Source: Methanomassiliicoccales archaeon PtaU1.Bin124
GTDB taxonomy: Archaea; Thermoplasmatota; Thermoplasmata; Methanomassiliicoccales; UBA472
Direction: 5' to 3'
NCBI GenBank assembly: GCA_002067865.1
Contig: MVRC01000012.1
Location: forward strand, 219,395 to 283,394
Length of the DNA stretch: 64,000 nt
The notes under the pieces are model-generated. The model was not told the origin of the DNA. It saw only the letters and a list, made by a program, of their open reading frames with translations, and did no database searches. The position numbers and the translations under genes were made by a program. Positions 38,058-39,972 of this stretch are shown here, piece by piece (within the stretch, counting starts at the first letter, position 1; every line of letters starts with the position of its first letter).

Positions 38058-38068
38058 GGAAAAAATTT

Positions 38069-38187
38069 GCCGCGGCCAATGGGGGTTAGCTTTTTGGTGG
38101 AAAAGCTATGAGAGAGTCGAATGTCAATGGCCGCGGCGGAACACTGAATGTTCCTCGACCTGGCACTATTGTAATCACCTTATTTAT
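38069..38187 (-). ncRNA. Candidate small structured transcript downstream of the protease gene
   Basis: Leftward reading from about 38187 gives, in order, a 10-bp GC stem arm (GCCGCGGCCA, 38137-38128), an inner hairpin TAGCTTTT/AAAAGCTA with a 6-base loop (38108-38087), the second arm (TGGCCGCGGC, 38078-38069), and then a run of six T (about 38060-38066). This resembles a small RNA with a terminator. A possible TATA box (GTTAATTGC, 38209-38217) and a TACTA-N7-TAGTA dyad sit in promoter position. Transcription is unproven; the structure could instead be a terminator for the operon ending at 38057. Confidence 0.3.
38086..38166 (-). CDS. Possible 26-residue small protein
   Basis: GTG 38166 follows AGGTGAT (38180-38174), a strong archaeal ribosome site at 7-base spacing. 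The frame encodes 26 residues, beginning MPGRGTFSVPPRP and ending FPPKS, and stops just before the final stem of the structured region. It lacks a membrane helix or known motif and could be chance. It matters because its presumed promoter carries the BlaI-type dyad. Confidence 0.22.
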   Translation of the reverse strand: MPGRGTFSVPPRPLTFDSLIAFPPKS

Positions 38188-38191
38188 TTGT

Positions 38192-38208
38192 TACTACCAT
38201 CGATAGTA
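38192..38208. promoter_or_regulatory. Second putative BlaI-type operator
   Basis: TACTA-N7-TAGTA, the same half-sites and spacing as the dyad in front of the BlaI-like repressor at 39885-39903. It lies between a leftward TATA-like box (38209-38217) and the expected transcription start near 38187, an ideal repressor position. Confidence 0.5.
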
Positions 38209-38252
38209 GCAATTAACGGAAGATATGCAGCAGCGGGACTTTGACGGGTGGA

Positions 38253-39440
38253 TCAGGACGAAGGAGGTGGTCCTGGCGGTATGCGGAATCCGAGGGTGAG
38301 GTTACCCTCATGGAACCCGGTATGATCGGCCAGGGCGCCATGCGCCATCATCGCCGGCGGCCTCAGCATATGATCGGCCACGATGATCTCATGGACCTCA
38401 TGGAACGAAGTAAGGAAGGTGAAACAGAGGATGGTGGTGATGACCAATGCCAGACCGACATAGGCCCAGCTCTTACTCACCCCGTCTGGACGGTTTATGG
38501 CCTCGATGCGCTGGTCCGCGCTGGGATGGAAGGACAGCCATCTCTTCGGCAACAGGGGCGAGCCGGCCAGCAGCCAGAGGTTCATTCCCCTCAATGCCCC
38601 TACGCCAATTTTTCCGGGGCCGGCAGACACCTTTCTCAAGGCGTCCTCTAAAGCTGCCGCGGAGTATCCTTCCTTGATGGAACCAGTGTCGGCCCAGTGC
38701 TCCCTTTCCCGCAGGGCGGCGGTGGCGCAGAAGTAGGCCAATGGGTTGAAGAATGAAACGGCAGCCAGGGCCATGGCGATCGAGCGGAAGATATGGTCTC
38801 CATGGCTCAGGTGCATCATCTCATGCGCCACCGCTGCCTCGACCTCCTCATCGGTGAAAGAATCCAGCAGGCCAAGGCTCAGTATGATGACGCTCTTCCG
38901 TCCCCTGCCGGCGATGAAAGCGTTGGGGCGGAGGTCTTCCAGAATGCCCAGCTTGGGCGTGTCCAGGCCGAGGCGGTCGGCGCATCTCTGCACGATCAAC
39001 TGTGCCTCAGGAAAGTCCTCTTCTGTGCAATTGATGACCCCGCAGCGCTTCAGCCAGCCAGTGCCGGGATTGAGGCAGAACAGCAGGATGAACATGCCCA
39101 GGACCAGGCCGGTGATGCACAGCATGCCGGTGTACGAGAACACCGAAACGACCTGGGGCGGGCCCAGCGGCATGAACGGACCGGCGATGAAGGAGATATG
39201 GTCCACCGCCGGCGGCAGGTCGCCCATGCGGTAATAGTACAGTTCAGGAGGGAAGACCAGCAGGGCGAATAGGGGCGACAGCAGTGGAGCGATATGCAGG
39301 TAGGAACGGACCCGATGGCTGAACACCTTGGTGAAGCGCAGTACCAGGTTCACCGCCAAGAACGAGGCCAGCATGGCTCCGACTGAATAGTAGAAGTAAG
39401 GCTGCATCAGCTGAGCCACGACCTCCTCCATCAACCCCAT
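38253..39440 (-). CDS. Membrane zinc metalloprotease (M56/M48, BlaR1-like without sensor domain)
   Basis: 395 residues. Three or four helices in the first 120 residues precede a zinc site HEMMH (H206, E207, H210) in the segment EVEAAVAHEMMHLSHGD, with the third ligand Glu in AALREREHWAD; RPNAFIAGRGRKSVI upstream is also typical. A helix near 345-365 follows, then a His/Pro-rich tail. In bacterial BlaR1 the protease cleaves or triggers loss of BlaI; here the repressor gene is immediately upstream (37-base gap). No penicillin-binding domain is present, so the signal must be different. Likely a membrane-stress or antimicrobial sensor; inference. Confidence 0.82.
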   Translation of the reverse strand: MGLMEEVVAQLMQPYFYYSVGAMLASFLAVNLVLRFTKVFSHRVRSYLHIAPLLSPLFALLVFPPELYYYRMGDLPPAVDHISFIAGPFMPLGPPQVVSVFSYTGMLCITGLVLGMFILLFCLNPGTGWLKRCGVINCTEEDFPEAQLIVQRCADRLGLDTPKLGILEDLRPNAFIAGRGRKSVIILSLGLLDSFTDEEVEAAVAHEMMHLSHGDHIFRSIAMALAAVSFFNPLAYFCATAALREREHWADTGSIKEGYSAAALEDALRKVSAGPGKIGVGALRGMNLWLLAGSPLLPKRWLSFHPSADQRIEAINRPDGVSKSWAYVGLALVITTILCFTFLTSFHEVHEIIVADHMLRPPAMMAHGALADHTGFHEGNLTLGFRIPPGPPPSS

Positions 39441-39477
39441 TCGCTCCTCCCCCTACCGCGCCGGATATGGACCCGGT

Positions 39478-39870
39478 TCACTTCTTTTCCACTTCTTCCG
39501 CGAAGGCGCTGGCGACCATGCCCTTACCGAATTTGGAGACCAGGCTGTTCAGCACCTGCCGGACCGCCTTCTCGCTGAACTCCTCCTCGGACATGGTGGG
39601 CCAATAGACGTAGTAAAGTCCGCCCTTGCCCCTTTCGATGGACCTCTGCAGGAATCCCTTGGAATGGAGGCGGTCCATGGTGGACATGACGGAGGTGTAG
39701 GCGATCTTGCTCTTGCTGTTCAGCACCTCGTAGCAATCCCTTACGGTCGCAGGCTTCTTGGGGAGCGACCACATGGTCTCCAGGACCTTCGCCTCCAGCG
39801 GTCCCAGGAACGACTCAAGGTCCTCACCCTTCAGGTTGAAATGTGGGATCTCGCACTGGTTCTCTTCCAT
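39478..39870 (-). CDS. blaI-like: BlaI/MecI-family winged-helix repressor
   Basis: 130 residues. The winged helix shows LGPLEAKVLETMWSLPKKPATVRDCYE (given across two helices), then IAYTSVMSTMDRLHSKGFL as recognition helix and the wing RGKGGLYYVY; the C-terminal helices resemble the BlaI dimer region with EEFSEKAVRQVLNSLVSKF. ATG 39870 is used because AGGTAGGGAA precedes it; ATG 39894 or GTG 39897 would lie in the operator. The TACTA-N7-TAGTA dyad just upstream implies autorepression. It probably represses the co-transcribed protease gene and perhaps the site at 38192. Confidence 0.85.
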   Translation of the reverse strand: MEENQCEIPHFNLKGEDLESFLGPLEAKVLETMWSLPKKPATVRDCYEVLNSKSKIAYTSVMSTMDRLHSKGFLQRSIERGKGGLYYVYWPTMSEEEFSEKAVRQVLNSLVSKFGKGMVASAFAEEVEKK

Positions 39871-39884
39871 TTCCCTACCTGAAC

Positions 39885-39903
39885 CTACTAACATCACTAG
39901 TAG
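39885..39903. promoter_or_regulatory. Putative BlaI-type operator
   Basis: CTACTA (39885-39890) and TAGTAG (39898-39903) are exact inverted repeats around 7 bases. They lie 15 bases before ATG 39870 of the BlaI-like repressor. The TACTA/TAGTA half-sites resemble bacterial BlaI/MecI operators; binding is inferred. Confidence 0.6.
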
Positions 39904-39972
39904 TAAAAAAACTATTCACATGGATACCTCATCCCACTCTTGTCCCATATGGGAAAAAGATGTCCGGGCCGG

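Follow-up and report, generated by a model that had tools for sequence, protein, structure and literature searches.

A BlaI-like repressor, a membrane protease and a conserved operator slot suggest an envelope-stress regulon in Methanomassiliicoccales archaea

In the 64-kb stretch of archaeal DNA analyzed here (the window), a gene for a BlaI-like repressor is followed by a gene for a membrane zinc metalloprotease, and two copies of the same palindrome flank the pair. The regulon to which they belong has the appearance of a switch for envelope stress in archaea, assembled from parts that resemble BlaR1/BlaI. Taken as a whole, the explanation that we favor, with moderate confidence, is that repressor and protease form a stress switch, that the second palindrome marks a conserved operator slot behind the protease, that the exporter belonging to this slot has been lost, and that its promoter was kept and would now give rise to a short RNA. 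The source genome (G000), of a Methanomassiliicoccales archaeon, is 2.2 Mb in size and 99.8% complete; in keeping with this assignment, the window includes a SepF gene as well as archaeal TATA-type promoters. The features of the locus are listed in Table 1.

Table 1. Annotated and predicted features of the BlaI-protease locus, in window coordinates.
Feature	Positions	Strand	Basis or remark
BlaI/MecI/CopY-like winged-helix repressor, 130 aa	39478-39870	minus	PF03965
Membrane zinc metalloprotease, 395 aa, HEMMH motif, M48/M56 type	38253-39440	minus	PF01435, PF05569
Operator 1, TACTAGTGATGTTAGTA on the minus strand, upstream of the BlaI-like gene	39886-39902	minus	
Operator 2, extended 21-bp form GCTACTATCGATGGTAGTAAC	38190-38210 (bare dyad 38192-38208)	minus	
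Leftward TATA-like box AAATAAATA, directly behind operator 2	38181-38189	minus	alignment with relatives
Predicted structured transcript of about 100 nt	38060-38160	minus	fold z; single copy; no permease behind
Parts of the predicted transcript: hairpin, nested stem, T-run	38138-38154, 38069-38137, 38060-38065	minus	
26-codon GTG...TAA ORF	38086-38166	minus	probably not a gene

An initial annotation of this DNA had described two identical TACTA-N7-TAGTA dyads, and both are real: the matches are exact, the window contains no third one, and chance expectation is zero, as 100 dinucleotide shuffles yielded no match. The further arm base claimed for operator 1, which has a TATA-like T-run (about 39903-39916) on one side and the BlaI ATG on the other, is likewise present as a C...G pair at 39885/39903. 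Genome-wide, the bare 17-mer occurs at five places and its backwards control at twelve; at this scale the bare pattern is therefore not diagnostic, unlike the 21-bp extended form, GYTACTA-N7-TAGTARC, which we derived by comparing relatives. Operator 2 is the sole exact extended match in this genome, whereas operator 1 fits the extended form less well. Among the 147 compared genomes of the order, six possess a BlaI orthologue; the exact extended site is found in all six and in none of the 141 others, a test that is partly circular because the consensus came from some of the same loci. With up to one mismatch allowed, the site is found in 6/6 genomes with BlaI and 9/141 without, and its backwards control is present in nearly all genomes of the order. 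The earlier assignment of both dyads to one BlaI regulon is well supported.

Independent of this circularity are the trans sites of two relatives, G042 and G044, which precede corresponding anchored fn3 proteins, and likewise the archaeal loci of a wider genome collection. A profile search of that collection with the alignment retrieved 80 loci (a single-protein query retrieved none). Within 200 bp upstream of BlaI, the N7 operator occurs with at most one mismatch in 12 of 12 archaeal loci, nine of them exact (L062, one of the twelve, comes from the organism of G042); the corresponding count for bacterial loci is 3/68. At the other spacings tried, no exact site was found in the 12 archaeal loci, and one-mismatch sites were seen at N4 in three loci and at N10 in seven. 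The canonical operator core of BlaI, MecI and CopY is TACA-NN-TGTA (PMC7253601); upstream of the repressor, this core, TACANNTGTA, was found in 0/12 archaeal loci. An operator in front of the repressor's own gene is present here and in every relative examined, a layout that suggests autoregulation of BlaI. That the palindrome truly serves an archaeal BlaI-type repressor as its binding site is very probable.

The assignment of the two proteins in the initial annotation is borne out by domain searches. The repressor scores 63.9 bits against PF03965 (gathering score 22.6), and a profile of six orthologues matches 2g9w_A (E 1.2e-11). For the protease, PF01435 scores higher (68.8 bits) than PF05569 (46.9 bits, threshold 31), and residues H206, E207 and H210 are invariant in alignment A3. 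A protease model of moderate confidence (pLDDT 71) matches the folds of ZMPSTE24, Ste24p and BlaR1 (8exq, E 3.7e-4), the TM-scores being low. Among known systems it resembles the HtpX and Ste24-type M48 membrane proteases in its protease domain, whose closest match by sequence is HtpX (3cqb, profile E 4.7e-15); unlike them, the archaeal protease is encoded with a BlaI repressor, and with 65.6 bits against the HtpX (M48B) NCBIfam model it stays far under the equivalog cut-off of 245 bits.

The likeness to BlaR1/BlaI and MecR1/MecI of Staphylococcus and Bacillus licheniformis concerns the whole arrangement: a PF03965 repressor with its own operator adjoins a membrane M56 zinc metalloprotease with an HEXXH motif, which is the BlaR1/MecR1-type layout. 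By analogy, the protease is a probable, putative anti-repressor. The archaeal locus differs in its TATA promoters, in its operator (TACTA-N7-TAGTA instead of TACA-NN-TGTA), and in having neither a beta-lactamase nor a PBP2a gene. It also differs in the lack of a penicillin-binding sensor domain, already noticed in the initial annotation: Pfam shows no transpeptidase domain in the protease, the tail past the last long helix comprises only about 35-45 residues, and the NCBIfam MecR1 model scores 19.1 bits versus a cut-off of 1200. The copper repressors CopY/CopR belong to the same superfamily as the archaeal repressor, but the latter has another operator, no Cys-X-Cys metal motif among its 130 residues and no copper pump at its locus; the NCBIfam CopY model matches weakly (30.4 bits versus 121.95).

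Operator 2 lies 45 bp past the protease stop, and its position is not peculiar to this genome: an operator at -36 to +99 bp of the protease stop occurs in 9 of 14 BlaI-protease loci, which come from several archaeal phyla. In G001, G042 and G044, operator and TATA box stand directly before a MacB-type permease; in L057 the operator precedes a MacB/LolCE-type permease (PF02687 and PF12704 in these permeases where scanned), and in L064 the slot operator precedes an HtrA-type protease (PF13365). The permease of L056 is divergent, with operators in between. A permease orthologue was found neither in this genome nor in G040 or G041. Relocation of the exporter within the genome was considered and rejected, as only distant FtsX permeases occur, with 26-37% identity over part of the protein. 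Since slot operators precede permease or HtrA genes in relatives and no permease is found here, operator 2 is, judged by sequence comparison, the promoter-operator of a cargo slot whose cargo is absent; by the same comparison, this genome has lost the exporter. Other arrangements were also seen. G040 (locus L021) possesses BlaI with its own operator and has neither protease nor exporter adjoining; an exact trans site of G040 (L162:3913-3933) precedes a 186-aa gene of no assigned function. In three Bathyarchaeota BlaI loci (L065, L066, L067), a divergent ABC ATPase/permease pair, ABC-2-like by eye, replaces MacB, and the operators lie within the divergent region.

The block of operator and TATA box aligns in five Methanomassiliicoccales genomes, with the TATA box immediately behind the operator, toward the slot; the box of operator 2 has its aligned counterparts in the promoters of exporter and stem in G001, G041, G042 and G044. 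The initial annotation had placed operator 2 between an upstream TATA-like box and the start. This geometry suits operator 1, but we reject it for operator 2, because the aligned box of the four relatives is behind the operator, at 38189-38181 in the window. In G042 the distance from TATA box to permease ATG is about 20 nt, as would suit a leaderless permease transcript, and from this TATA-to-ATG rule we infer a transcription start near 38159 in the present genome.

Behind this promoter, the nested stem and leftward T-run of the initial annotation were both recovered. The segment 38060-38162 (minus strand) folds at -37.2 kcal/mol with a z of -5.7, the second-lowest z of 2,130 window segments scanned; the only lower value (-6.4) belongs to the segment 47101-47203, also on the minus strand. 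The segment has no match in Rfam, even at E<=1. A repeat or mobile element was dismissed as an origin of the stem, the segment being single copy in the genome. Relatives of the genus Methanomassiliicoccus keep a structured segment at this place, and two of them have the exporter as well: G042 and G044 each possess a further operator and TATA box with a stem behind them, located between the protease gene and the promoter of the exporter. Each of these stems has 13 of 14 pairs, with three compensatory pair changes and two pairs changed on one side, a covariation that comprises two sequences only and was counted on a structure-guided hand alignment (MAFFT gaps one arm, misplacing it by a base). 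G041, likewise without the exporter, retains the operator and its TATA box, and a stem follows the box at 19 nt; across this genome, G041, G042 and G044 the stem starts 19-28 nt behind the TATA box. The fold z of the relatives' stems is modest (-2.3, -1.4 and -2.4), and a simple longest-stem test, unlike the folding-energy test, gives no significant result for G041 or for this genome. The stem of this genome shows no sequence similarity to, and is not alignable with, the stems of G041, G042 and G044; in G001, from the same family as this genome, the promoter is not followed by a stem. In the genus to which this genome belongs, the two remaining species possess neither BlaI nor the left-flank gene, so that the stem comparison covers relatives outside that genus.

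According to the favored explanation, BlaI dimers would bind GYTACTA-N7-TAGTARC and block TATA promoters, sitting beside or over the TATA/BRE region in the way of TBP and TFB. A membrane signal would activate the protease and BlaI would then be removed, as modeled on BlaR1/BlaI. Operator 2 would be the regulon operator of a conserved slot, usually occupied by a MacB/LolCE-type ABC exporter or by HtrA; after loss of the exporter, the kept, repressor-controlled leftward promoter may direct an RNA of about 100 nt, enclosed by stems, probably non-coding and ending at the T-run. A small non-coding RNA from this promoter is plausible. Given the structured segment kept by the Methanomassiliicoccus relatives, the small third regulon member proposed initially may exist, in which case it would be non-coding. 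A relic promoter combined with an operon terminator is nearly as likely, and the two are close competitors. Since the protease gene is transcribed in this direction too, stem and T-run may merely terminate the BlaI-protease operon; operator 2 and its TATA box would then be left over from a lost ABC exporter operon, and there would be no functional small RNA. We regard this as a serious possibility, although well short of an even chance. It draws on G001, where the same operator and TATA box stand directly before the exporter, on the absence of the exporter from this genome, and on the sole T-run behind the protease, which both transcripts would share. What it leaves unaccounted for is that this genome and G041, two lineages without exporter, have kept operator and TATA box intact, with a stem following at 19-28 nt, and that the exporter of G042 and G044, having an operator and a TATA box to itself, does not need the additional promoter and stem. 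Going further, a BlaI-repressed small non-coding RNA could form an integral part of an envelope-stress regulon in archaea and be produced along with protease and exporter once the membrane protease destroys the repressor, as a counterpart of the sigma-E-type response with its small RNAs, evolved from BlaR1/BlaI-like parts; this is a tentative and, on balance, doubtful proposal.

We consider it improbable that operator 2 is an auxiliary site through which BlaI, bound at both palindromes, would form a loop in the operon or increase the repressor's local concentration, with any transcript being incidental. The two sites do flank the operon at a distance of 1.7 kb, and bacteria are known to have more than one bla/cop operator (PMC3305447, PMC7253601), but in five of five Methanomassiliicoccales loci the aligned TATA box lies behind the operator, and most relatives have a gene behind it, so that a promoter role suffices. 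Less probable still is control of a 26-codon peptide gene. The ORF named in the initial annotation does exist, with its GTG at 38166 and a GGTGA motif 8 nt upstream; yet this GTG lies upstream of the start expected near 38159, so the predicted transcript would not include the ORF. Because it furthermore enters the stem, and no matching ORF was seen behind the aligned promoter of relatives, we rejected it as a gene; it is probably not translated from the operator 2 promoter.

The genes that carry the operator elsewhere indicate what the favored stress switch may respond to. The one other extended site of this genome, with one mismatch (contig C13:215768-215788; L148:3769-3789), lies 15 bp before a gene whose secreted product of 721 aa has beta-helix/NosD and Ig-like domains, and it stands behind the TATA-like AAATTATAACC; this protein is a probable further regulon member. 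Operators at L163:3971-3991 (G042) and L165:4092-4112 (G044) precede corresponding membrane-anchored fn3 proteins; the one of G044 has a transglutaminase-like domain, and a methylthiotransferase gene adjoins in both genomes. Exact operators are found 8-9 bp before HtrA-type genes (Trypsin_2 and PDZ) at L059:10519-10535 and L063:8995-9011, in genomes labelled Thaumarchaeota and Brockarchaeota. By operator position in relatives, HtrA is linked to the operator in L059, L063 and L064, the MacB permease in G001, G042, G044 and L057, and secreted or anchored proteins in G000 (one secreted protein with a trans site), G042 and G044. Because HtrA and secreted Ig, beta-helix and fn3 proteins carry the operator, the best reading that these associations suggest is an archaeal envelope (secreted-protein) stress regulon. 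The genes predicted to be co-regulated, MacB-type exporters included, also favor the envelope signal postulated in the initial annotation: the inducing cue would probably be a misfolded secreted protein or a membrane signal.

In bacteria, sigma-E, Cpx and CssRS are envelope-stress regulons, and sigma-E includes small RNAs. All of them resemble the archaeal system, as proposed here, in an HtrA-type protease under one membrane-sensed regulator, and the small RNAs under the sigma-E regulator would have their counterpart in the RNA predicted here. The difference lies in the regulator: the bacterial systems use a sigma factor or a two-component system, whereas the archaeal one, as predicted from sequence, would consist of a one-component BlaI repressor and a membrane protease. 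Among open-access papers we found no description of an archaeal BlaI-protease regulon or of an HtrA-containing envelope-stress switch in archaea. The extended operator predicts members of such a regulon by sequence in Methanomassiliicoccales, Bathyarchaeota, Brockarchaeota and Nitrososphaerota-labelled genomes, and the way in which archaea sense trouble with secreted proteins, a largely open question, becomes directly testable. The regulon also provides a candidate for a stress-controlled small RNA, and it suggests placing BlaR1/BlaI, the antibiotic-resistance switch, in a broader class of envelope-stress switches that require no beta-lactam sensor. A separate one-mismatch extended operator was observed in G001 (L147:7120-7140), where it is followed by the TATA-like ATTTTTATAG and stands before a zinc-ribbon protein.
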